Assembly: GCF_024171815.1 (NCBI RefSeq)
Contig: NZ_JAMTCJ010000002.1
Span: 496,001-560,000, forward strand
DNA length: 64,000 bases
Direction of reading: 5' to 3'
Source of the DNA: Williamsia maris
GTDB lineage: Bacteria > Actinomycetota > Actinomycetes > Mycobacteriales > Mycobacteriaceae
Numbering within the stretch: the stretch's first letter is position 1; every line of letters starts with the position of its first letter. The translations under genes were made by a program, and so were the position numbers. This document shows positions 8,878 through 57,528 of the stretch, piece after piece. The notes beneath the pieces were generated by a model. It saw only the letters and a list, made by a program, of their open reading frames with translations. It was not told the DNA's origin and did not search any database.

Positions 8878-11195
8878 CGGGTCGCCACCGCCGGCAACAG
8901 TCGCGAGATCTCCAGGGAGTGATCGGGGTGATCGGCCGGGACGATGCCCGAGTAGATGGCCGTCCAGCAGCCCGGGCAGCACAGCTGACGGAACACGATC
9001 GGTGTGTCGACGTACTCGGTCGGGTCGGACGTGACCTGGGGGCCGGCCGCCGAGGACGGGCCCTCGAACCGCGCGAGATCCAGGACCCCGCCGTTCTTGT
9101 CGTCGCCGAGCAACCGACCGCAGTGCGCGCAGGCGATGACACGCGAGTCACCGACACTGACCTCGGCGAGGTTGTCGTCCAGTCGTCGGCCCAGGCTCAG
9201 GTCCATCGTCGGGGCGTCGGGGTGCTGCGTGGATCGCTCCCGACGTTCGGTCAGCATGGACGTCCGTAGTTTCGCGGTCGCGCGATCATCGGTGCCATTG
9301 TGGTCGACGACGACGCCGTAGACCGCGGCCGCGCCATCCGCGGTGACCTTGCCCTCGCGCAGATCGATCGCGACGGCGGCCGGGTCGCGCTGCAGCGGAT
9401 CGCCGTACCCTCCGCCACCCTGCCAGTGCATGTACAACACCTCGCCGGGCGCGACGTAGCTCTCCGCATAGCAGGCCCCGAACTCCCGGCCGCCCGCGAG
9501 TTCGTCGAGGTCGCCGGGGATGTGGCCGGCCGCGAACTGCTCGTTGATGTCGGTGCCGCGGGCAAGGATCTCGAGGCCGGTGTTGCCGGGATATCCGCCT
9601 GCCAGACCGTTGTTCTGGGCCACGGCCTTGCCCGCGGACGCCAGGACGAGACCCATCGGCAGGCTGGTTCCGTACGGGGTGACCGCCAACGACGCGCTCA
9701 CGCCGCCGCGCTGACGGCCGGGCCCGCCCGAGTCGGGCTCCTCGCGACGCCACAACGTGAGCAACGGGTAGAGGAACTCGGTCATCTCGGTGTCCGGGAT
9801 GCGGCCCATCGGGATGCAGAAGAGTCCTCCGGTGTCCATGCCGTCGGCCGTTGGACGCGCCCCGTATCCGCCGGCCATGGGCTCCATCATGATGTTGAGG
9901 AACGGGACCGGTTGCTCGGCCCGCTCGTCCAGCCCCGCGATCACCGCGGTGTCCCAGGTGCCGCAGCACGCCGCCTGCACACTGGCGCCCAGATCGACCG
10001 AGCGGTCCAGCATCTGCGAAAGACACTCCGCGATCAGGGTTCCGGTCAACCAGGCGGGTCCGATCGGGCCACGACTGACCGCGGCCGGGAAGCTCGCGTT
10101 GTTGATGGTGCCCTCTTCGGAGACGAGATCGAAGCACCGCATCAGACCGCCTGCCGACCACGGGATGTCGCCGGCGAGGATCGGGAGCAGCGCGAGCATG
10201 ACCCCACCGCGCATCCCGGCATAGGTGCAGTTGATGACGCCGGTCTGTTTGTCGGTGCCGGTGAAGTCGAACGTCAGATGGTCGTCGGTCTTGGACATCG
10301 CGACGGTGATCTTGTGGACGCCGCGGTCGCCCGCGTGTGACTGGTCCTGGTATCCGGTGGCCTTCCAGGTGCCGTCGGGCAGCGAGGTGAGCTTCGATCG
10401 GAGTCGCCCCTCGGCGTCGGTCATCATGCGCTTCATGACGGCCTTGACGGTGTCGGCACCGTACTGCTCGATGACCGCGTGGATGCGGTTGCGTCCCACC
10501 GTGTTGGCGCCGATCTTGGCGCGCAGGTCGAGGCCCACGAGCATCGGGACACGGGACCGGCGAACCCACACGTCGGCGACGTCGCGCTGGAGTTCGAAGT
10601 TGCGGACCACCTTGATCGGCGGGGTGGGCAGCGACTCGGAGAAGACGTCCTTGGCCGACGGGTCGAACGATCCGAGTCCCGATCCACCGAGATCCGGCTC
10701 GTGGCAGATGGCGCTGGTCCAGCTGAACAGCTTGCCCTCGTGGAAGATCGGTTGGTAGACGATGACGTCGCTCTGGTGCAGACCACCCCCGACCCAGGGA
10801 TCGTTGCAGAGGAACATGTCGCCCTCCTCGATGCCGGGATTGGTGGCGCGGTTCTGCAGCGTCCAGTAGATGGCGAGGTCGACGGCGCCGACGAGCATCG
10901 TGTTGTAGAGACCGACCTGGACCTCCTGGCCCAGTTCGTCGCTCACGGCGAAGTCGAAGTCGTTGGCGTCGGTGACGATCGGCGACCCCGACATCCGCTT
11001 GAGGGCTTCGCCCATCTCGTCGGTCACCGACCACAGGCGGTGGCGGATCACCTCGTAGGTGAGTGGGTCGAGGTCGTCGATCTGCTGCTGGGTCACCGTG
11101 TGGATCTGCAGGCTCGGCGGCAGTGAGCGGGCGAGGGCGTCGGGGTCGACGGGACGGCTCGAGAAGACTTCGGAGCCGGGGATCGGTGAGGTCAT
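8874..11195 (-). CDS. HyuB/AcxB-type subunit fused to an acetone-carboxylase-gamma-like zinc domain
   Basis: 773-aa protein. Residues about 40-590 are the hydantoinase-B/acetone-carboxylase alpha fold (DPLTYEVIRHRLW, NDPWVGGGLHQSDV, GGVSASLAVTPYG). Residues about 600-773 are an added domain with two cysteine pairs, CAHC at 689-692 and CCPGC at 739-743, like the zinc-binding gamma subunit of acetone/acetophenone carboxylases. Generic annotation would say N-methylhydantoinase B. The gamma-like tail instead suggests an ATP-dependent carboxylase of a small ketone or a ring-derived compound (inference). The gene is 10 nt downstream of hyuA and overlaps the ligase gene by 4 nt. Confidence 0.85.
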   Translation of the reverse strand: MTSPIPGSEVFSSRPVDPDALARSLPPSLQIHTVTQQQIDDLDPLTYEVIRHRLWSVTDEMGEALKRMSGSPIVTDANDFDFAVSDELGQEVQVGLYNTMLVGAVDLAIYWTLQNRATNPGIEEGDMFLCNDPWVGGGLHQSDVIVYQPIFHEGKLFSWTSAICHEPDLGGSGLGSFDPSAKDVFSESLPTPPIKVVRNFELQRDVADVWVRRSRVPMLVGLDLRAKIGANTVGRNRIHAVIEQYGADTVKAVMKRMMTDAEGRLRSKLTSLPDGTWKATGYQDQSHAGDRGVHKITVAMSKTDDHLTFDFTGTDKQTGVINCTYAGMRGGVMLALLPILAGDIPWSAGGLMRCFDLVSEEGTINNASFPAAVSRGPIGPAWLTGTLIAECLSQMLDRSVDLGASVQAACCGTWDTAVIAGLDERAEQPVPFLNIMMEPMAGGYGARPTADGMDTGGLFCIPMGRIPDTEMTEFLYPLLTLWRREEPDSGGPGRQRGGVSASLAVTPYGTSLPMGLVLASAGKAVAQNNGLAGGYPGNTGLEILARGTDINEQFAAGHIPGDLDELAGGREFGACYAESYVAPGEVLYMHWQGGGGYGDPLQRDPAAVAIDLREGKVTADGAAAVYGVVVDHNGTDDRATAKLRTSMLTERRERSTQHPDAPTMDLSLGRRLDDNLAEVSVGDSRVIACAHCGRLLGDDKNGGVLDLARFEGPSSAAGPQVTSDPTEYVDTPIVFRQLCCPGCWTAIYSGIVPADHPDHSLEISRLLPAVATR

Positions 11196-11205
11196 GAGGG
11201 CGCTC

Positions 11206-13308
11206 CTACTGGGCGACGATGGAGAGGTTGCCGAGACGGTCGACTGTGCCGGTGGTGCCGTGGGGGACGACGACCGTCGTGGTGGGGACCTCGACGATGG
11301 CCGGTCCGGTCAGGACGTGGCCGGCGGCGAGTTTGCTGTAGTCGTAGATGTCGCTGTCGACGAAACCGACGCGGCCGTCGAGACAGACCTTGCGACTTCC
11401 GATGCGGGCCGCGGAGGCGTCCGGCGAGTCCGCCGACTTCACCTCGGGCAGGGTCGGCGAGAACGGCAGCACGCCGGTCGCGCGGACGCGGTAGGTGATG
11501 GCCTGGATGCCGGCCTCACGGAAACCGCTGTCCTTGCCGTAGAGATCGGCGTAGCGCTGCTCGAACAGATCGGAGGCGTGCGCGACGCTGGTCGAGTCGA
11601 GAGCGCCCTCGGGGAGCGAGGTCGCCACCTCGGCGAGCTGCATCGTGTAGCGCATGTCGATCTCACGCTCTACCTCGATGCTGGTGAACGACAGCCCCTG
11701 CCGACTCAGGGCCGCACGGACACGCTTCTCCAGTCCGGCGAAGTTCTGTTCGGCCCTCGCCGGATCGAGCGGCATGGCCGCCGGGTCCGAGAGTTCAGCG
11801 GCGAGAACGATGTTCGACGAGGCCAGACCGTAGGCGGAGAACGCGGACGCAACCTGACCGAGCGGGACGACCACCTCTTTCACCCCGACCTCGGCGGCGT
11901 ACCCCGCACAGTGCGCGGGACCCGCGCCACCGAAGGCGTAGAGCACGAACTCACGCGGATCGTGTCCGGCCTCGACCACGGTCTTGCGCAGCAGGTCACC
12001 GGTCTGGGCGTTCTGCACCGCGTAGATGGCGGCCGCGGCGTCCTCGATCGACAGGCCCAGCGGCTCGGCGATCCGACGGCGGATCGCCTCGCGGGCGAGG
12101 TTCTTGTCGAGTGGCTTGCGGCCTCCCAGCAGGCCTCGCTCGGGCAGGATGCCGAGGACGAGGTTGGCGTCGGTGTTGGTGGGCTCGGTGCCGCCCTGCC
12201 CGTAGCAGGCCGGCCCGGGGACCGCCTGCGCGCTGTGTGGTCCGATCTGCAGGTTGCCGCCCGGATCGACCCAGGCGATGGCGCCGCCGCCGGAGCCGAT
12301 CGCGTGCACCTCGAGGGTGGGGACGTTGATCGGGTGGTGGTTGATGATCGTGCTCGACGCACGGACCGGCTCGCCGTCGACGACCAGTCCGACGAGGAAG
12401 GTCGTGCCGCCGACGTCGGTGGCGATGACGTTGCGGTGGCCCAGTTGCCGACCGAGGGAGACTGCGCCGACGACGCCGCCGGTCAGCACCGACCCGACCG
12501 TGCTGATCGCGTTCTTCGGTGCCTCGGCCGCGGCGACCGCGCCACCGTTGCTCTGCATCACCAGCAGCGGTCCGGCCAGCTTCAGATCTCGCAGCTTCGA
12601 CTCCAACGATCCGAGGTAGTCGCGCAGGCCCGGACCGATCTGCGTGCTCATGATGGTCGTGGCGTTGCGGGCGAACTCCCGGATTCGGGGGCTCACCTCG
12701 CTGGACAGCGAGACGAACATGTCCGGGTCGATCTCACGCACGAGTTCGCGGATCCGCTCCTCGTGGACCGGGTTGCGGAACGACCACAGCAGCGAGACCG
12801 CGATCCCCGACACCCCGTCGGCCACCAGCGACCGGATGGCCTCTCGCGCGGAGTCCTCGTCGAGCGCGACGACGATGTTGCCGTCACGATCGATCCGTTC
12901 GGTCACCTCCAGCGCGTGCCGCTTGGGGACCAGGCCGTGGGACTTGCTCTGCCCCATGACGTTCTGCAGTTGCTCGGGTGATCCGCCGAGGTAGCGGCCC
13001 TCCACGTTCATGATGTAGATCGAGTCGCGATGACCCTTGGTCGTGAGGAAGCCGACCGGCGGGACGTTGCCCATGACGAGCGCGTTCAGCGACGACGTCG
13101 TGCCGTGCGCGATGTGATGGGTGTCGGCCAGCATCTCCTCCACCGGGCGCCCCAACTGTTCGGCCAGCGCCACCAGGACATCGATGACCCCCTGGGAGTA
13201 GTCCGGGGGCGTCGACGGGGCCTTGGCGGCGACCACGGTGCCGGAACTGTCGTCGAGTACTGCGTCTGTGAACGTCCCGCCGACGTCCACTCCGATCACA
13301 TAGGTCAT
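11206..13308 (-). CDS. HyuA/AcxA-type ATP-dependent subunit (hydantoinase A/acetone carboxylase beta family)
   Basis: 700-aa partner of the downstream HyuB-like protein. The ASKHA-fold ATP site is visible: VDVGGTFTD (residues 7-15), HGTTSSLNAL (about 70), DVGGTTF (about 300) and the late FGGAGPAHCAGYA segment. The family phosphorylates carbonyl or lactam substrates before carboxylation or hydrolysis (family knowledge). ATG 13308 is preceded by AAAGGGAG at good spacing. It is the first gene of the left arm; the divergent spacer to 13580 holds the shared promoter-side motif. Confidence 0.88.
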   Translation of the reverse strand: MTYVIGVDVGGTFTDAVLDDSSGTVVAAKAPSTPPDYSQGVIDVLVALAEQLGRPVEEMLADTHHIAHGTTSSLNALVMGNVPPVGFLTTKGHRDSIYIMNVEGRYLGGSPEQLQNVMGQSKSHGLVPKRHALEVTERIDRDGNIVVALDEDSAREAIRSLVADGVSGIAVSLLWSFRNPVHEERIRELVREIDPDMFVSLSSEVSPRIREFARNATTIMSTQIGPGLRDYLGSLESKLRDLKLAGPLLVMQSNGGAVAAAEAPKNAISTVGSVLTGGVVGAVSLGRQLGHRNVIATDVGGTTFLVGLVVDGEPVRASSTIINHHPINVPTLEVHAIGSGGGAIAWVDPGGNLQIGPHSAQAVPGPACYGQGGTEPTNTDANLVLGILPERGLLGGRKPLDKNLAREAIRRRIAEPLGLSIEDAAAAIYAVQNAQTGDLLRKTVVEAGHDPREFVLYAFGGAGPAHCAGYAAEVGVKEVVVPLGQVASAFSAYGLASSNIVLAAELSDPAAMPLDPARAEQNFAGLEKRVRAALSRQGLSFTSIEVEREIDMRYTMQLAEVATSLPEGALDSTSVAHASDLFEQRYADLYGKDSGFREAGIQAITYRVRATGVLPFSPTLPEVKSADSPDASAARIGSRKVCLDGRVGFVDSDIYDYSKLAAGHVLTGPAIVEVPTTTVVVPHGTTGTVDRLGNLSIVAQ

Positions 13309-48211: not shown

Positions 48212-48382
48212 TTACTTGAACGTGTCCTTGATGTTCTCGCCGACCTTCTTCACGCCGGCCTTGCCCTGGTCGCCCTTGCCCTCGGCTTCGAGGTCCTTGT
48301 TGTCGGTCTTGTCCCCGACAACTTCCTTGGCCTTGCCGATGGCGTCTTCCGCTGCGTTCTTGGCCTTGTCGACGATTCCCAT
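48212..48382 (-). CDS. CsbD-family stress protein
   Basis: 56-aa protein with the CsbD pattern: MGIVDKAKNAAEDAIGKAKE, then a repeated K/E/D-rich amphipathic helix and the terminal GENIKDTFK. Family members are general stress proteins, in Bacillus under SigB (family knowledge). A strong AGGAGGA precedes the ATG. It lies 62 nt after dps on the same strand, with an 8-bp hairpin between them. Confidence 0.9.
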   Translation of the reverse strand: MGIVDKAKNAAEDAIGKAKEVVGDKTDNKDLEAEGKGDQGKAGVKKVGENIKDTFK

Positions 48383-48444: not shown

Positions 48445-48984
48445 TCAGCGAGCCTGGTCGGCAGCCTGCGCCTCGGACGTCGCGCCCGCGGTGGAGAGCT
48501 GGCCGGTGTAGTTCTCGAGGTGCGCACGGACGAACCAGTGGAACTTTTCCAGCTCAGCGGTCTGACCGATGAGGATGTCCTCGGTGACCGGGTCGATCTC
48601 GCCAACCGACTTGATGGCGTCGCGGTGCGAGGTGATGAAGCCGACGTAGACGAGGTCGAGGGCTCCGAGGTGGGCCTGGACCGAGTCGCGACCCAGCGTG
48701 TAGTCGTCCCACGAGCGGTCCTTCTCGATCGCGTTCGCGGTGCCTCGAGGGGACTCGCCGAAGGTGGCGATGCGCTCGGCGAGGGTGTCGGCGTATCCGC
48801 GGACGAGGTCGACCTGCGGGTCGATCATCTCGTGCACGCCGATGAAGTTCGTGCCGACGACGTTCCAGTGGATGTGCTTGAGGGTGAGGTGCAGATCGTT
48901 CAGGGCGCTCAGGCGCTCCTGCAGGGTGTTCGACACCGCAGCTGCGTCCTCGGGGGAGATTCCGGGCGTTGTGAAAGTAGCCAT
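48445..48984 (-). CDS. dps: Dps-family ferritin-like DNA-protection protein
   Basis: 179-aa protein with the Dps ferroxidase motif HLTLKHIHWNVVGTNFIGVHEMIDPQVDLVRGYADTLAERI (about residues 29-70, with conserved His, Asp and Glu) and a four-helix bundle. It stores iron and shields DNA from oxidants. An in-frame ATG at 49005 is an alternative start. GAGGAC lies close to the chosen ATG 48984. It heads the dps-csbD unit. Confidence 0.92.
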   Translation of the reverse strand: MATFTTPGISPEDAAAVSNTLQERLSALNDLHLTLKHIHWNVVGTNFIGVHEMIDPQVDLVRGYADTLAERIATFGESPRGTANAIEKDRSWDDYTLGRDSVQAHLGALDLVYVGFITSHRDAIKSVGEIDPVTEDILIGQTAELEKFHWFVRAHLENYTGQLSTAGATSEAQAADQAR

Positions 48985-49230
48985 GTCCTCGACGGTACGA
49001 GTCATTTCGGCTCTTGCCCACCGGCCTCACCGAATCGCAATCAGACCGAGGCAACGGTAACGATCCGGTAACGAGCGCCGTGACCGCTCTGTGGCTGTTC
49101 TGTCACTGATCCGTGACATCGCGGATGCGGCCCTGCGACGTGGAGGTGACAACGTCATCTGTCAGCAGCGTGCGAAGCCAGTCGGCACGAGATGTACCAC
49201 GACGACCGCACGAATCAGACGAGGAGCGTC

Positions 49231-49478: not shown

Positions 49479-50135
49479 TCAGGCGAGCCCGCCCGCCTTG
49501 CCGACCCAGTCCGTCCCCGGTGGGGTGAACACGTCGATCACGACGTCGTCGTCGGTGTACGTCGCCTGAGTGGGACCGAGCACCGTCCGTAGTCGCTGGT
49601 GTACCTCGTCACCGGTCCACGGGTAGGCGGACACATGATGTCGCCAGTGCGCGGCGATGACCGTCGCACCGGCGTGCCGGTGGCGGTCGAGGGCCTCGGT
49701 GATCGCGGTCAGTTGCGGGTCGTCGAGGTAGTAGAGGACCTCACTGGCGACGACCAGGTCGAACCGGTCACCGTCGGGTTCGATCCCGTCGGCGATGTCG
49801 GAGACGTGGACCGCGACCCGGTCGGCGACCGCACCGAGTCGGGTGCGCGCCAGTTCGGCGGCTCGTGGGTCCAGTTCGAGACACACCAGCGACCCGCAGC
49901 GCTGCGCCAACAGCGCACTCAGGACGCCGATCGACGACCCGAGTTCGAGGGCTCGCTCGTACCGCGGGGCCGGCAGCAACGACATCGTGATGTCGTACTT
50001 GCGCGTCTCGTACCACCGCTCGGCGAAACCCCACGGGTCGTCGCTGTCGGCGTACATCGACCGGAAGTACTCCGGATCGACACTCGATCGCTGGTCGTCG
50101 GCGGGCACGGTCGGCTCCTGTTCGCGATCGGTCAT
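49479..50135 (-). CDS. SAM-dependent methyltransferase (NodS-like class I)
   Basis: 218-aa methyltransferase: the N-terminal PEYFRSMYADSDDPWGF segment, ELGSSIGVL motif I (about residues 65-73), a Glu in CLELDP that contacts SAM, and VVASEVLYYL. It resembles NodS-type N-methyltransferases or the methyltransferase half of bifunctional PIG-L proteins. It is the last gene of the four-gene operon. ATG 50135 overlaps the PIG-L stop (ATGA). Confidence 0.85.
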   Translation of the reverse strand: MTDREQEPTVPADDQRSSVDPEYFRSMYADSDDPWGFAERWYETRKYDITMSLLPAPRYERALELGSSIGVLSALLAQRCGSLVCLELDPRAAELARTRLGAVADRVAVHVSDIADGIEPDGDRFDLVVASEVLYYLDDPQLTAITEALDRHRHAGATVIAAHWRHHVSAYPWTGDEVHQRLRTVLGPTQATYTDDDVVIDVFTPPGTDWVGKAGGLA

Positions 50136-50902
50136 GAGAAGAACGTCTCGGTGGGTCCGGTCAGTCGGTCGAGCACGTGCGGTTCGAGGACGGCGCGGTC
50201 GGCCGGGTCGTCGGACAGGTCGGTGATCTGGGAGACGAAGGCGTGCACGGCGCGCTTCTTCGCCTCGACCGCGGCGGGACTCAGCCGGTGCCGTCGGGCT
50301 CGAGCCCACGGCACGGCCTCGTCGCCGGGGCGGGCCCAGTGCCACATCCACACGGGGTACTCCAGCAGCGCGATCCCGAGTCGGGACGCGACCGCCGACG
50401 CCGCGTGACCGACGGCCTCGTGGTCGGGATGACGGTCCGCACGCCACACCGACACGATCAGGGAGTGACCGCCGTATGCGGCGACCGCTGTGTCGATGGC
50501 CTCGGCGATCGCGTCGCCGTGGCGGTCGAGCCCGCCGTCGGGCAGCTCGTGATGGATGGTGCGGTTCACACCGAGGGCGCTCAACGCGGTGGTCAGCTCG
50601 GCGCGGCGGATGCCGGCGAGCGCCTCGGGCGTCACCGTCGGCGACCCGGGGTGCGACGCGGCGCCGTCGGACAGGCACAGGACGGTGACACCGATGCCCT
50701 GTGCGACCGCGTCGTGGAGGAACCCGCCCGCACCCAGCACCTCGTCGTCGGGGTGCGCCGAGACCACCAGGACCTGCTCCGAGTCGCCGTCGAGCGCCGA
50801 TGGCAGCTCGACGGAGTCGAGCCATTCCCGCCACTGCCCGGCCGGCGCGGCACCCGGATCGGCCGATGTCCACGCGGGCCTCGGTGGACCGTCCTGACTC
50901 AC
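50132..50902 (-). CDS. PIG-L/LmbE-family deacetylase
   Basis: 256-aa zinc-dependent N-deacetylase fold. AHPDDEVLGAGG (about residues 49-60) and HPDHEAVGHA (about 159-168) give the metal His/Asp set. Substrates are GlcNAc-containing compounds in characterised relatives (MshB, PIG-L). The GTG start at 50902 overlaps the stop of the ACAD-like gene (GTGA) and its own stop overlaps the methyltransferase start, so all three are coupled. Confidence 0.88.
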   Translation of the reverse strand: MSQDGPPRPAWTSADPGAAPAGQWREWLDSVELPSALDGDSEQVLVVSAHPDDEVLGAGGFLHDAVAQGIGVTVLCLSDGAASHPGSPTVTPEALAGIRRAELTTALSALGVNRTIHHELPDGGLDRHGDAIAEAIDTAVAAYGGHSLIVSVWRADRHPDHEAVGHAASAVASRLGIALLEYPVWMWHWARPGDEAVPWARARRHRLSPAAVEAKKRAVHAFVSQITDLSDDPADRAVLEPHVLDRLTGPTETFFS

Positions 50903-51849
50903 GATGCCCCGACCCCGCCCTCGTCCCGCGCATGCAACAAGGCACCCAGAGCGCGCAGGTCGTGTTCGGCGTGCGACTGGCGTAGATACACCGTCAGGTC
51001 GGCGACCGCCTGGGCGTGAGCCGCGTCGGCGACCAGCGGTCCGGGGCCGAGGCACCGACCGACCCGTTCGATGACCTCGGTCGCCACCTGTTCGATGATC
51101 GCGCGGACACGGAGAGCGATGGCTTGGGCGCCCTCGAGGTCGTCGGGCGCGGCGTCGAAGGCGTCCGCGGCGGCGGTCAGTGCCGCGGCGCCGTTCCACA
51201 GCGCGGTGTCCACGGCGCCGAGATGTACCAGTGTCAGGTCGTCGGACTTGCGTTGGCGGAACAGTCGGTCGGCCACCAGGGAGGCGCCGCCGAACCAGCA
51301 CGCCGCGACACCCACCGCACCGTGCCAGAAGCCGGGGCGGTGCAGGTACGCATCGGCGTCGGCGACGAATTCGACCGGTGTGTCCGCGAACTGGACCGCG
51401 TGGGTCTCCGTCGCCGCCATCCCGGAGTTGTGCCAGTCGCCGTCCGCGGCGGTGATCGACTCCTGCGCCAACTCCACGATGAACATCGCACGGCCGTCGC
51501 CGGTGCGGGCGGTGACGAGGGCGTGTGTGCATCCGTCGGCACCGGAGCACCAGGGTTTGGTGCCGGTCACCGTCCACGCGCCGGTCGGGTGCTCGGTGGC
51601 GGTCAGGACTGCGGTCGAGGACTCGGCGGCCCATACGCCCCACAGCTGATCGTCGCCCACGGGCTCCCGACCGAGGTCGCGCAGTATCGCGTCGGCATCC
51701 CAGTGGGCTTCGAGGAGTCGGCCGACGGAGATGTCGCGGCGGGTGTGCTCGGTGAGCAGCGCGAACCGCTCGCGGGTGGCCCCGGCAGCCGGCAGCGGCG
51801 GGGTGTCGGTCGACGCCGCGATGTCGCGGGCGTTGTCGATCGCGGTCAT
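50899..51849 (-). CDS. Acyl-CoA-dehydrogenase-like protein of the four-gene operon
   Basis: 316-aa protein, shorter than typical ACADs (about 380 aa). The middle strand region TGTKPWCSGADGCTHALVTA (about residues 95-115) and the C-terminal helical domain with RQSHAEHDLRALG (about 290) are kept, but the N-terminal helical domain is abbreviated. The clear catalytic Glu signature is absent, so it may bind an acyl group or a flavin without classical dehydrogenation. Start ATG 51849 overlaps the glycosyltransferase stop. Confidence 0.78.
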   Translation of the reverse strand: MTAIDNARDIAASTDTPPLPAAGATRERFALLTEHTRRDISVGRLLEAHWDADAILRDLGREPVGDDQLWGVWAAESSTAVLTATEHPTGAWTVTGTKPWCSGADGCTHALVTARTGDGRAMFIVELAQESITAADGDWHNSGMAATETHAVQFADTPVEFVADADAYLHRPGFWHGAVGVAACWFGGASLVADRLFRQRKSDDLTLVHLGAVDTALWNGAAALTAAADAFDAAPDDLEGAQAIALRVRAIIEQVATEVIERVGRCLGPGPLVADAAHAQAVADLTVYLRQSHAEHDLRALGALLHARDEGGVGAS

Positions 51850-52541
51850 CGCGCCATCGGTTCGGTGAGATGCGGGAGTGCGCCGGCGAATCCGCCGGGT
51901 GTGCGCCCGGTCCGACGTGTCGACGTCGAGACCGGCGCCTGCGCCGACCACGCGATCGCGACACCGCCGGCCGCGAGCCGCGCCACCAGGTCGACGTCCT
52001 CGTGTTCGACGAGCGGCGCGAAGCCACCCGCCGCGAGGTACGCCGTCGAGCGGAACCCCAGGTTCGCGCCGTGGACATGCCGGTGGCCGTCGTGGTTGGT
52101 GTAGGTCTCGGCGAACGACGAGGCCGCGTCGGCGGGCCATCCCGACCAGTCGTCCGGGGTGATGGTGCCGACGAACGCGTCGGCACCGGTGGCCGCCGCC
52201 ATCGACTGCGCCGACAGCCAGTTGCGGGGGACCCGCGAGTCGGCGTCGGTGGTGGCGAACCAGATGTCCACGCCCACAGACCGTCCCGCGAATCCGGCCA
52301 ACCGTGCGCAGCCGACGTTGTGGGAGTCGATGACCACCGTGGCGACACCCGGTGGGACCGCAGCGTCGGTGCCGTCGGTACAGGCGTCGAGGACGACGAC
52401 GATCTCCACGTCGGCGGTGACCTCCGCGGCGGCCGCGGCCACCGAGGCCACCGCGCCGGGCAGGGTGTCGACCTCGTCGTGGGCGGGTATGACCACGACG
52501 AACCGGTTGATCGTCGGACTTGTTGTGTCGAGTTCGTTCAT
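51846..52541 (-). CDS. Family 2 glycosyltransferase
   Basis: 231-aa GT-A-fold enzyme without membrane helices. FVVVIPAHDEVDTL (about residues 14-27), DACTDGTDA and TTDADSRVP (the DxD-like metal site, about 96-105), and the late VHGANLGFRSTAYLAAGGF and EHEDVDL segments are present. It is the first gene of the operon, with AGGAG 5 nt before ATG 52541. Gene overlaps then run GT2-ACAD-PIG-L-methyltransferase. Confidence 0.88.
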   Translation of the reverse strand: MNELDTTSPTINRFVVVIPAHDEVDTLPGAVASVAAAAAEVTADVEIVVVLDACTDGTDAAVPPGVATVVIDSHNVGCARLAGFAGRSVGVDIWFATTDADSRVPRNWLSAQSMAAATGADAFVGTITPDDWSGWPADAASSFAETYTNHDGHRHVHGANLGFRSTAYLAAGGFAPLVEHEDVDLVARLAAGGVAIAWSAQAPVSTSTRRTGRTPGGFAGALPHLTEPMAR

Positions 52542-52617: not shown

Positions 52618-53289
52618 TCAGTGGGCGAAAAGGTCTGAGCGAGCGAGTAGTTCGGATGCGTCGGCGAAGACCTCGGAGGCGCCCGCCGCGCGCAGCTCCT
52701 GCGCTGCGATTCCGCCGCTACGCACCCCGAGCCCATGGACGCCGATGTCGGTGGCCGCGACGAAATCCCAGGTCGCGTCGCCGATCATCACGGCGTTCTC
52801 GGCAGTGACCCCGGCGCGCTCGAGTGCGAGCGCGACGACGGTGGAATCGGGCTTGGCCGTCTCCACGTCGGCTCCCGACGTCACCGCGTCCACGGCATCC
52901 TCGACGTCGAGCAGCGACCGCAGGATCTCGAGTTCGTGCTCGGGCGCGGAGGTGGCCAGCACGACCACGAAATCGCTGTCCTTGCAACGGCGCACCAGAT
53001 CCCGCGCCCCGGGCAGCACGGTGAGTTCGTCGGAACGGCTTCCGTAGTGCTCGTCGTGCGCCGACGACAGCTCCGACGCGAGGTCCGACGACCCGGAGTC
53101 GCCGCCCGCGACGTCCATGAGTTCCTCGACGAGGAGCGATCCGTCCTTGCCGATACGACGGTGGATCTCCCAGGCCGGTGCGACCAGGCCGTGGTCGGCG
53201 AACGCGCGACGCCAGGCGTCGACATGCAGGTACACCGAATCGACCAGCGTGCCGTCGATGTCGAAAAGGATCGCCTGAGTGGGCGCCAT
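52618..53289 (-). CDS. HAD-superfamily hydrolase
   Basis: 223-aa phosphatase or phosphomutase of the beta-phosphoglucomutase-like HAD class. FDIDGTLVDS (residues about 8-17) has the nucleophile and acid Asp; LATSAPEHE, K in ETAKPDS and GDATWDF complete the motifs. GGAGG sits 7 nt before ATG 53289. The substrate is unknown. It is 76 nt upstream of the GT2 gene and in the same direction, so it may belong to the same transcript. Confidence 0.88.
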   Translation of the reverse strand: MAPTQAILFDIDGTLVDSVYLHVDAWRRAFADHGLVAPAWEIHRRIGKDGSLLVEELMDVAGGDSGSSDLASELSSAHDEHYGSRSDELTVLPGARDLVRRCKDSDFVVVLATSAPEHELEILRSLLDVEDAVDAVTSGADVETAKPDSTVVALALERAGVTAENAVMIGDATWDFVAATDIGVHGLGVRSGGIAAQELRAAGASEVFADASELLARSDLFAH

Positions 53290-53427
53290 GGAGAGGCCTC
53301 CGGACTGTGAGCTGCGCAACGCGGTCACCCGGTGATTTCAGGCCCTCGTTGTCCAACCCTAGTCCGTCGGACACCCTCGTCACTCGTCGACGACGTCGCC
53401 CGGACCTGCCGGTGACGGCCCGGGGAG

Positions 53428-53721
53428 CTAGAACTCGTCGCCCTCGGACGGCGCCGAGGAGGGGTTCAGTCGCTGCAGGTGCACGCGGCGGGCGAGCCGG
53501 ATCATGGGGCGGATCAGCAGTTCGATGCTGCCCACGAGGAACAACCACGTACCCGCTGTGGTGGTCGATTCACCGAAGAACAGCACGCTGCCTGCGATGA
53601 ACCAGATCGCGATCAGGATGTCGTTGACGATGCTGACGACTTCCCAGCGCTGGCGGATCACCAACTCGTCGTGACCGATACGCACCGTCAACGGGGAGTC
53701 ACCCCCGGCCGAACCGGTCAC
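53428..53721 (-). CDS. YrhK-domain membrane protein
   Basis: 97-aa protein with the YrhK-like pattern GHDELVIRQRWEVVSIVNDILIAIWFIAGS, two membrane helices and a conserved LIRPMIRLARRVHLQRL end. Function unknown. GTG start at 53721. It is upstream of the HAD gene on the same strand. Confidence 0.8.
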   Translation of the reverse strand: MTGSAGGDSPLTVRIGHDELVIRQRWEVVSIVNDILIAIWFIAGSVLFFGESTTTAGTWLFLVGSIELLIRPMIRLARRVHLQRLNPSSAPSEGDEF

Positions 53722-53903: not shown

Positions 53904-54812
53904 TCAGCTGGTGGGGTCGACCGCGTCCTTGATCTTCCCGACGACACCCTTCTCGGTACCGAAGGCGGCAGCGCGGGGTTCACCCATCGCACCGTCGTAG
54001 GTCGCGTACAGCTTGGGATCCGGCGGCGGGCCGGCCTGCACGTTGCCCAGCGGTTCCGGGTTGGCCAGGAACCCGTTCTGATGGATGCCGTCCGGAGCGG
54101 TGCCGTGCGCCCACCGGCCCTTGTCCGCGTCGGCGCCGTCGGAGAGGTGCCACAGGCTGGTCGCGTGCTCGGCGAACTCCTCGTCGAACAGGTCGTTGGG
54201 GACGATGGTGTCCTCGATGCCGTCGGCCTTGAGTTCCTCGATCGCGGCCAGCCAGAGGTTCTGGTGATACGTGTCGCGCGCGAGGTTGAACCGCAGCATG
54301 GCCTTCACACCCGGATCGTCGGTCATGTGGAACAGTCGAGCAGTCTGTAGACGGCCCTGGGACTCGAGCGAGACGTTGGAGCGGAAGTCCGCCAACAGGT
54401 TTCCGCTCGCGACGATGTAGCTGCCGTTCCAGGGGACACCGTTGCTGTTGGCGAGCAATGCCCCGCCACCGGAGACGATGGCCTGCTGGGGGTCCATCCC
54501 GCCCATGACTGCCGCGACGACCGGATCACCCATCGCGTTCTTGGTCGACTCGGTGGCCGGTGCGCCCTCGAGCAGGCGGGCGACCATCGTCGCGATCATC
54601 TCGACGTGGCCGATCTCCTCGGTCGCGACGTCCATGATCAGGTCCTTGTACTTGCCCTTCATGCGGCAGTTCCAGCCCTGCATGAAGTACTGCATGGTCA
54701 CCGTCATCTCTCCGAAGGTGCCGCCGATCAACTCCTGGAGCTTTCGCGCGAAGACCGGGTCCGGGTTCTCGGGGGCGATGTCGAACTGCATGTGATCGGT
54801 GTGACGAAACAT
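53904..54812 (-). CDS. Manganese catalase
   Basis: 302-aa non-haem di-manganese catalase that splits hydrogen peroxide. Ferritin-like helices carry the family ligands: GTFGEMTVTMQYFMQGWNC (about residues 30-48), VATEEIGHVEMIA (about 60-72), and NLARDTYHQNLW (about 185-196) with the second Glu/His set. ATG 54812 follows AGCAGGCACC. No signal peptide. It is divergent from the FAD-Rieske gene across a 486-bp spacer. Confidence 0.92.
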   Translation of the reverse strand: MFRHTDHMQFDIAPENPDPVFARKLQELIGGTFGEMTVTMQYFMQGWNCRMKGKYKDLIMDVATEEIGHVEMIATMVARLLEGAPATESTKNAMGDPVVAAVMGGMDPQQAIVSGGGALLANSNGVPWNGSYIVASGNLLADFRSNVSLESQGRLQTARLFHMTDDPGVKAMLRFNLARDTYHQNLWLAAIEELKADGIEDTIVPNDLFDEEFAEHATSLWHLSDGADADKGRWAHGTAPDGIHQNGFLANPEPLGNVQAGPPPDPKLYATYDGAMGEPRAAAFGTEKGVVGKIKDAVDPTS

Positions 54813-55298
54813 GGTGCCTGCTTTCGTTGGCCGTCGTGACATCACACGGACCGATGCTCGGACAGCACGAATCCACGGTGTCACAACGAGATACGACGAA
54901 CTTGTCACGTGCGGGGATCGAAGATGTCCCGCCGGGTGCATCCGCGTTGAACACCAGAGACCACGCGATGAGCGTGGTGCGACAAGAATTGAGGGAGATC
55001 ACGGCGAGGATGCTGCACCGCGGCGGTGGAATGGACTCACCGGCCTCGATCACAGTAGCGCGTTCTGCGTCCGAAACGAAAGGGTCGTGCGGATATCGTT
55101 GCGACACAGTCATATCGATGCAGCGTCGGCCGGTGGTGCTCACCGTTCGCCGGGTACCCGCGGCCCACGTGGGGTACAACTGGGACGAGGGATGACACGG
55201 CCAGCCCCGCCACACGTCCTTCCCGGTGCGACGCCCCCGAGATTCATGCGGCGCGCACGCCGACGCCGCCGTCCCGCGGCCTTCGAAGGAACGACTCC
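54813..55298. other. 486-bp spacer, no gene seen
   Basis: Divergent spacer between the Mn catalase and Rieske flavoprotein genes. Open frames on both strands have no good start or family match. The only notable element is a GTACCC/GGGTAC inverted repeat at 55154-55177, separated by 12 bp, about 120 bp before the flavoprotein ATG. Confidence 0.55.
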
Positions 55299-56808: not shown

Positions 56809-57528
56809 TCAGCGCGGGGCACGCAGGGGGTGATCGGCCTCGATCAGCTGGCGGGCGAGGTCGATCACGGCGACGTTGGCGTCCTGGGACAACTTGCGCA
56901 GCAGCTCCCAGGCCTGCAGGGCGTCGATGTCGAAGCGTTCCATGATCATGCCCTTGGCCTGACCGATCGTGTCGCGACTGGCGAGCGCGCTCGCGAACTG
57001 CACCTCGCGGCGGGCGCTGAACAGTGCCAGGGCGGCATGGGTGGCCACCGCGAGGCCGATCTCCTCCGCGTCGGTGGTGAACGCTCCCACCCGTGTGCTG
57101 TGGACGTTGAGTGCACCCATGCTGCTGTCGCTGCGGTACAGCTGAAAGGCCATGGTCGACCGGATGTCGGTGTCACGCACTGCGGCGGCGATGTAGGCCG
57201 GCCAGCGTGCCTCGGATCCGTAGTCCTCGACGCGAACGAGGTGTGACGTCCACTCCGTTGCCGCCTGGAGGCAGGGCCCCTGACCGGCGCTGGTCTGCAG
57301 TCGATCGATCAGCGCAGCCGTCGGGTCGGTGGGGGCCACCGTCGCGATCCCGCTCTTCGACACCAGGGTGATGGCGCAGGATTCGGCGCCGGGGATCTGT
57401 TCGATCGCGCCGGCCGTGGCCGCCACCAACAGATCCTTCTCGTCGATCGAGGTCTCGCCGGCGAGTTCGCGGGCCATGGCGGCCATGACGTCGTGGCGGA
57501 CGACCGCCGGAGGAGAGCTCGCGTCCAC
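56809..57528 (-). CDS. GAF-ANTAR RNA-binding regulator
   Basis: 239-aa protein. Residues about 15-165 form a GAF sensory domain; about 175-235 is the ANTAR domain (ASALASRDTIGQAKGMIMERFDIDALQAWELLRKLSQ), which binds two-hexaloop RNA terminators to antiterminate (family knowledge). The GTG start at 57528 has GAGGAG 5 nt upstream. It is convergent with the Rieske gene and sits among stress genes. No ANTAR hexaloop pair was noticed nearby. Confidence 0.9.
   Translation of the reverse strand: MDASSPPAVVRHDVMAAMARELAGETSIDEKDLLVAATAGAIEQIPGAESCAITLVSKSGIATVAPTDPTAALIDRLQTSAGQGPCLQAATEWTSHLVRVEDYGSEARWPAYIAAAVRDTDIRSTMAFQLYRSDSSMGALNVHSTRVGAFTTDAEEIGLAVATHAALALFSARREVQFASALASRDTIGQAKGMIMERFDIDALQAWELLRKLSQDANVAVIDLARQLIEADHPLRAPR

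Follow-up and report, generated by a model that had tools for sequence, protein, structure and literature searches.

A four-gene cassette of Williamsia maris, linked across bacterial phyla and found near stress genes: a candidate pathway to an N-methylated amino-sugar glycoside

What does a bacterium make with a glycosyltransferase, an acyl-CoA dehydrogenase (ACAD)-like protein, a zinc deacetylase, and a methyltransferase that are encoded as one overlapping set among stress genes? This question is raised by a stretch of 64,000 nucleotides from Williamsia maris (NZ_JAMTCJ010000002.1, positions 496,001-560,000), here called the window, by which all coordinates of the locus are numbered. On its minus strand, from 52541 to 49479, four genes follow one another head to tail, and encode a family 2 glycosyltransferase (GT) of the GT-A fold (51846-52541; 231 residues; PF00535, E 8.8e-10), an ACAD-like enzyme of flavoprotein fold (50899-51849; 316 residues; PF02770, E 1.1e-8, the ACAD middle domain only), a PIG-L zinc deacetylase (50132-50902; 256 residues, GTG start; PF02585, E 1.7e-27), and a NodS-like S-adenosylmethionine methyltransferase (MT; 49479-50135; 218 residues; PF05401 NodS, E 1.8e-12). 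The three junctions (ATGA, GTGA, and ATGA) each overlap by exactly 4 nt, which at every junction would be the usual sign of one translation-coupled operon; coordinates, junctions, and Pfam families thus bear out the overlapping four-gene set that a reading of the sequence alone (the sequence-only reading) had described. Our preferred interpretation, which we regard as about equally likely to hold as to fail, is that of a horizontally spread biosynthetic cassette, belonging to a stationary-phase, oxidative, or drying stress programme and making a small N-methylated, flavin-oxidised amino-sugar glycoside.

Linkage, gene order, and distribution of the cassette

For the linkage analysis, we fetched 73 focal stretches (at most 20 kb each) around ACAD-like hits in other genomes, a set that leaves out the window itself, G005, G025, G065, G080, and those hits of a 101-genome ACAD scan that were weaker than 1e-9; the controls were 40 windows of 20 kb at round coordinates, from 30 genomes with related loci. 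Pairwise tblastn placed all four genes within 4.5 kb of each other in 59 of the 73 stretches. With family profiles, they were found within 6 kb in 63 of the 73 and in 31 of 41 loci from the first ACAD-like scan, and none of the 40 controls matched any of the four profiles; here, the tblastn count is the cleaner one, because the profiles were partly trained on members from these genomes. The 41 first-scan loci belong to Actinomycetota, beta- and gammaproteobacteria, and Acidipila (a genus of Acidobacteriota), and they overlap in genomes with the 73 stretches; two loci, L136 and L137, look near-identical. Ten of the 41 are incomplete, with L006 and L019 cut by contig ends and most others flanked by about 5 kb. 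Near the loci of Paraburkholderia and Burkholderia lies a divergent PIG-L gene, in a cluster of 8 loci that pairwise tblastn missed and whose L041 member has PF02585. Beside the cassette, we noticed such divergent PIG-L genes at L041:7552-8298 (Paraburkholderia) and L189:7973-8695 (Cupriavidus), an apparent deacetylase replacement in one lineage. Moreover, at L141 the cassette GT is missing and a GT2 of another subfamily (11174-12637) comes directly after the MT gene, so that a replacement may be present at some of the loci that lack the GT; the gene cluster of this other type spans 6 of 94 loci. Relatives of the ACAD-like family without the other three genes were also seen (L082:11767-12933, L179, and L185), and may be a sister family with another function.

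Gene order varies while linkage is kept. Among the 59 complete loci, 26 read ACAD-PIGL-MT-GT, 25 read GT-ACAD-PIGL-MT, and 4 read PIGL-MT-GT-ACAD, such that 55 keep to a single strand and follow one of three cyclic permutations, and the other 4 depart in order or strand. Recent common descent would by itself hardly account for a rearrangement of this kind, which points towards a function common to the genes. Co-occurrence was followed in 101 related genomes with hits at 1e-10, a threshold that drops G085 from the ACAD set, and PIG-L was left out of it because the window genome has five PIG-L genes. Here, the ACAD-like gene is present in 45 genomes, MT in 44, and GT in 42, with all three in 40 and none in 54 (Fisher p 4e-21 to 3e-25, common ancestry being ignored). 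GT is never found without the ACAD-like gene, and MT is so in two genomes (G087 and G089). The ACAD-like gene without MT or GT is found, among others, in G005, G065, and G072, which are contig-end or low-completeness cases, and in the unexplained G080 (no GT) and G083 (neither). At the looser threshold of 1e-3, 55 of the 101 relatives have an ACAD match, the weakest of these probably being ordinary ACADs. The mirror-tree correlations of 0.60-0.83 over the 59 loci and 0.42-0.78 over 14 Pseudomonadota loci, in which species ancestry is not corrected, fit joint inheritance. In wider draws of genomes by phylum, an ACAD hit at 1e-15 is found in 19 of 299 genomes from the phylum of Pseudomonas, 4 of 199 from that of Acidipila, and 18 of 296 from that of the window, and the distribution of the cassette is uncommon and patchy.

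The cassette is also carried on plasmids. Matches in the plasmid collection amount to 32 records, the set is carried by records of three phyla (that of Nostoc included), and all four families are present in 10 of the 11 records whose gene content we read, one of the 11 being an Acinetobacter baumannii record of 3.66 Mb that is labelled a plasmid and is chromosome-sized. A fourth phylum is added by plasmid pn1 of Nostoc sp. UHCC 0926, which has the full set with GT on the opposite strand, and plasmid pB of Methylobacterium has a relative of the ACAD-like gene alone. Hence, the four genes are a conserved unit in Actinomycetota, Pseudomonadota, Acidobacteriota, and on a Nostoc plasmid. The sequence-only reading had asked whether they stay together across phyla, and they do; the scattering that would have counted against it was not found.

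Stress and trehalose genes around the cassette

Genes for stress proteins recur near the cassette. KatE is found in 17 of the 73 focal stretches and in none of the 40 controls (p 3e-4), and Dps, Mn catalase, and LigD in 8, 5, and 4 stretches, respectively, again with none in the controls. Likewise, 7 of 73 stretches have a DUF4235 gene at most 10 kb from the cassette (for example, L170:4263-5406), versus 0 of 40 controls. Some loci have an actinobacterial Holin-X family protein beside the DUF4235 gene. The background marker, an ABC ATPase, was met in 11 of 73 stretches versus 8 of 40 controls. When any stress or trehalose gene is counted, the figures become 37 of 73 versus 2 of 40 (p 2e-7), with a gene list that was chosen after seeing the neighbours and with loci that are not independent. 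The stress context claimed for the window thus recurs in other genomes. Trehalose genes by themselves were found in 12 of 73 stretches versus 2 of 40 controls, which is not significant (p 0.066). The link to stress genes is a good one, and the link to trehalose genes is only suggestive and rests on plasmid operons.

More conspicuously, it is among these plasmids that trehalose and alpha-glucan genes come close to the cassette: ots, GH65, GlgE, or maltokinase genes were found nearby in 6 of the 11 viewed loci, and the Nostoc locus, with a GlgX-like fragment, makes a seventh. In Comamonas antarctica and C. endophytica, the plasmid order is otsA-ACAD-PIGL-MT-GT-otsB, in which otsA and otsB overlap or abut the cassette, and in Legionella lytica it is otsB-GH65-PIGL-MT-GT-ACAD. 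In Cupriavidus basilensis, ACAD-MT-GT is accompanied by GlgE, maltokinase, KatE, and a divergent PIG-L; near the cassette of two Acinetobacter plasmids, otsA and otsB genes were seen. These arrangements suggest a special case of our preferred interpretation, by which GT would glycosylate trehalose or trehalose 6-phosphate and the other enzymes would decorate the product to give an amino-trisaccharide osmolyte. As trehalose-type genes also occur in the controls at a rate not significantly lower, as both Comamonas loci are of one genus, and as stress islands may gather cassette and trehalose genes independently, we see trehalose-specific tailoring as possible and rather doubtful.

On the plasmid of Acinetobacter ursingii (L079:3871-9604), genes for a catalase, a DUF421 protein, and an iron-containing redox enzyme (PF14518) stand beside the cassette and otsAB, a region with the look of a mobile desiccation island. 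DtpC, as described in PMC13232832, is a diiron protein resembling haem oxygenase whose gene accompanies that of KatE. Going by that description, DtpC and the A. ursingii PF14518 protein would be of a similar domain class.

The four enzymes and the chemistry they would perform

By its model, the ACAD-like protein is predicted to have the fold of the ACAD/class D flavin monooxygenase superfamily. PF02770 was matched by 30 of 30 family sequences, and the C-terminal domain PF00441 by 4 of 30 at E 0.01 or better, the window protein not being one of them. In a profile search, the best ranks went to TdsC/DszC and 5GJ7/5Z8T, and lower ones to ACADs and nitrososynthases. With the AlphaFold2 (AF2) model (predicted local distance difference test score, pLDDT, of 91.7), the top Foldseek hit was KijD3, and in VIA-align ACADs, ColB1, and TdsC were tied at Z 28-29 (up to Z 29.0, root-mean-square deviation 2.7, 298 residues), families missing from the VIA-align lists not being thereby excluded. 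Aligned with seven ACADs encoded in the same genome, the protein has S292 (at least 90% conserved) at the MCAD-type glutamate position and G177 (invariant) at the IVD-type one, the two catalytic-base positions of ACADs; S292 comes from reading a gapped hhalign stretch without its gap, a choice that the ends of the modelled helices favour, and with the gap kept the residue is L289, which is likewise non-acidic. Since there is no catalytic acid at either base position and no acyltransferase in the cassette, an acyl step, as the sequence-only reading had assigned to this protein, is unlikely.

The class D flavin monooxygenases (the nitrososynthases KijD3 and DnmZ, and DszC/TdsC) have a fold like that of the ACAD-like protein and, as it does, lack the ACAD catalytic glutamate. 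The KijD3 structure was solved with flavin mononucleotide and a deoxythymidine diphosphate (dTDP)-amino sugar. In contrast, the ACAD-like protein is about 60-90 residues shorter than the solved class D chains, has conserved motifs of its own (RPGFWHG and RQSHAEHD), and showed no reductase partner among the neighbour clusters scanned. Going by the fold, it would bind a flavin, and we tentatively favour oxygenase or oxidase chemistry for it, at somewhat less than an even chance.

For MT, the nearest characterised relative is NodS. PF05401 scores 48 bits, above the Pfam cut-off of 24 and ahead of the generic methyltransferase models, and the N-terminal DPW stretch aligns with that of NodS. The NCBIfam NodS equivalog NF041650 matches 21 of 21 sequences of the MT family, and the window protein reaches 53.7 bits with it, far below the 300-bit cut-off, by which MT is a homolog of NodS and not NodS itself. 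Against solved structures, the MT profile gave 4ISC (E 4.7e-70), NodS 3OFJ (E 1.9e-27), and phosphoethanolamine N-methyltransferase (2.8e-13). The first of these, a solved methyltransferase with no stated function, is a member or very near relative of the MT family of the cassette, and no open PubMed Central paper was found that names 4ISC together with methyltransferase. The sole PADLOC match, that of the methyltransferase stretch of mads_2 to MT (E 1.2e-14), was taken as generic, and anti-phage defence was set aside as a role.

In PIG-L, the zinc motifs HPDD and HPDH are conserved, and H50, D52, D53, H158, P159, D160, and H161 do not vary among 20 members. The invariant residues thus take in those that, by the assignment in MshB, bind the metal and act as base. 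Its Pfam scan gave PF02585, besides one model at E 0.42, and the nearest solved relative is an archaeal diacetylchitobiose deacetylase (Dac; E 5.2e-23). Dac serves chitin breakdown, whereas the cassette enzyme is found in a biosynthetic-looking operon. A single open frame spans PIG-L and MT in 7 of 94 loci, each of which has the gene order of the window genome, and a Pfam scan of four of these (L172, L173, L174, and L181) found the PIG-L domain followed by a NodS-type methyltransferase. Judged by their families, the two would be a sensible deacetylate-then-N-methylate pair, and the fusion would fit consecutive steps on one amine.

The pathway that we propose from these parts would begin with GT, which would transfer an N-acetylamino sugar (most simply N-acetylglucosamine) from a nucleotide donor to an acceptor that is small and soluble. 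PIG-L would then strip the acetyl group, MT would N-methylate the freed amine, and the ACAD-fold flavoprotein would perform an oxidation, likelier as an oxygenase or oxidase than by acyl-CoA dehydrogenation. The product would be a small N-methylated amino-sugar glycoside, for which trehalose is the best-placed guess as acceptor. KijD3 N-oxygenates a nucleotide amino sugar, and by analogy the flavoprotein might N-oxygenate the amine that PIG-L and MT prepare. The glycoside would then carry an N-hydroxy-N-methyl amino sugar (a hydroxylamine or nitrone), perhaps attached to trehalose, and would trap radicals in dried or starving cells. We consider this refinement improbable; were it true, sugar hydroxylamines or nitrones would be a new class of protective solute, osmolyte and antioxidant in one, moved between phyla and partly on plasmids.

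Alternatively, the sequence-only reading had seen a Nod-factor-like enzyme set making an acylated and methylated amino-sugar or glycolipid, in which the acyl chain would be the task of the ACAD-like protein. The parallel is real at the level of activities: nodC, nodB, and nodS stand for sugar transfer, N-deacetylation, and N-methylation, and MT is a distant homolog of NodS with the DPW stretch common to both. NodC, however, is a larger membrane enzyme and NodB belongs to the polysaccharide deacetylase family, and neither GT nor PIG-L is of these families; no NodC-named model was among the Pfam or NCBIfam matches of GT. Moreover, the cassette has an additional flavoprotein, a stress setting, and no acyltransferase of the NodA type, NodA being absent from the four genes and from ten neighbours scanned in the window (a search that did not extend to the rest of the genome). 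Among the neighbour clusters, one acyltransferase cluster was identified, near 4 of 94 loci, and others were not searched for. Membership in Nod-factor biosynthesis was thus rejected by the family scans, and the comparison is a fair one only as an analogy, for two or three of the activities. Of the proposed product, N-methylation would fit the PIG-L and MT pair, and no evidence was found for acylation; with Ser and Gly at the ACAD base positions, a Nod-like product is unlikely.

GT has its DxD and ED pairs (D99, D101, E181, and D182) invariant in 25 sequences, and its AF2 model (pLDDT 93.3) shows a GT-A fold. In VIA-align it is near WrtF, TarS, TarP, and others at Z of about 20-22, and because these structural neighbours use several donors, we do not predict one. 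TarS and TarP as cell-wall enzymes, and WrtF as an oligosaccharide fucosyltransferase, would favour a cell-surface or housekeeping polysaccharide set with stress genes adjacent by chance. However, the patchy presence, the plasmid carriage, and the absence from 54 of 101 relatives do not fit housekeeping. Furthermore, GT has no clear membrane helix, much as had been claimed: the highest 19-residue Kyte-Doolittle mean is a marginal 1.70, at residue 33, in a stretch that the model folds into the GT-A core as a helix and a strand. The Pfam scan of neighbour clusters, made on 25 representatives out of 45 listed, found no flippase or lipid-carrier family in those 25, an argument tempered by a major facilitator superfamily transporter near 6 of 94 loci. 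Taken together, we doubt strongly that the set is of this kind. Least probable by our estimate is a low-molecular-weight thiol or conjugate pathway, drawn by analogy with mycothiol and bacillithiol (MshA-MshB and BshA-BshB), which likewise pair a glycosyltransferase with a PIG-L deacetylase and would suit the oxidative-stress neighbours, since BshB1, BshB2, and MshB, though the best NCBIfam matches of PIG-L, are matched far under their equivalog cut-offs (61.4 of 182.5 bits for BshB1 and 26.3 of 224.35 bits for MshB), the four genes include no cysteine ligase, and the additional MT and flavoprotein presumably have no place in those routes.

Window neighbours, counterpoints, and meaning

In the window, the genes on either side of the cassette are on the minus strand as well. 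Downstream are Dps (48445-49005; PF00210) and a CsbD-like small protein (48212-48382), the latter a 56-residue open frame that looks like CsbD by eye. Upstream, a HAD phosphatase gene (52618-53328; PF00702) ends 76 nt before GT, followed by genes for a YrhK-like protein (53428-53721) and a Mn catalase (53904-54815; PF05067, E 3.4e-92). The flanks are as the sequence-only reading had named them, which had left the HAD phosphatase and the YrhK-like protein unmentioned. Of the 73 focal stretches, 8 have a HAD phosphatase gene close to the cassette, versus 1 of 40 controls, and this one is a possible co-transcribed accessory that could dephosphorylate an intermediate. A GAF-ANTAR regulator is encoded at 56809-57528, and 12 of 73 focal stretches, versus 1 of 40 controls, have a regulator of this type close to the cassette. 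Among the commonest neighbours are short-chain dehydrogenases (15 of 94 loci), a large general family, counted here in the cassette loci alone.

Several observations weigh against the stress-programme glycoside that we prefer. ACAD hits served to select the 73 stretches, which include several near relatives, and, as said, the profiles were partly trained on members from the same genomes. By these profiles, 10 of the 73 lack one or more of the genes, and 3 of these have the ACAD-like gene alone, such that this family exists also without the others. Furthermore, 36 of the 73 stretches lack every stress and trehalose gene on the list, the excess of trehalose genes in genomic stretches is not significant, and no trehalose gene is found among the ten window neighbours scanned with Pfam. 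A flavin reductase or electron-transfer flavoprotein family was absent from the 25 neighbour-cluster representatives scanned. Neither of two promoter patterns of SigB/SigH type exceeded chance: GTTT-N-GGGTA had 0 matches and GGAA-N-GTT had 12 versus 9.6 expected, none within 5 kb of the operon.

Among the matches listed, the open PubMed Central full texts gave no description of the four-gene set, subscription papers lying outside this search; nor was any open paper found that pairs PIG-L with NodS, or a PIG-L family deacetylase with an acyl-CoA dehydrogenase. Among papers on Acinetobacter desiccation, PMC6181384 had no match to cassette terms, and the passages considered of PMC10325922, PMC13232832, and PMC13130816 do not name the cassette genes; those of PMC13118837 and PMC7074687 do not describe the set. 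For Pseudomonas aeruginosa, the roles of trehalose and alpha-glucan are separated in PMC8084333, going by its accessible part, and cassette-enzyme terms do not occur there. As far as we have seen, each enzyme superfamily is known and the pathway is not.

A compact and mobile four-enzyme pathway, about half of whose loci have stress genes nearby, points to a protective metabolite that is widespread and for which we found no name. It offers a way into the question of how bacteria of soils and surfaces withstand drying and oxidants, and provides candidate functions for protein families that are misleadingly annotated as acyl-CoA dehydrogenase or nodulation protein.

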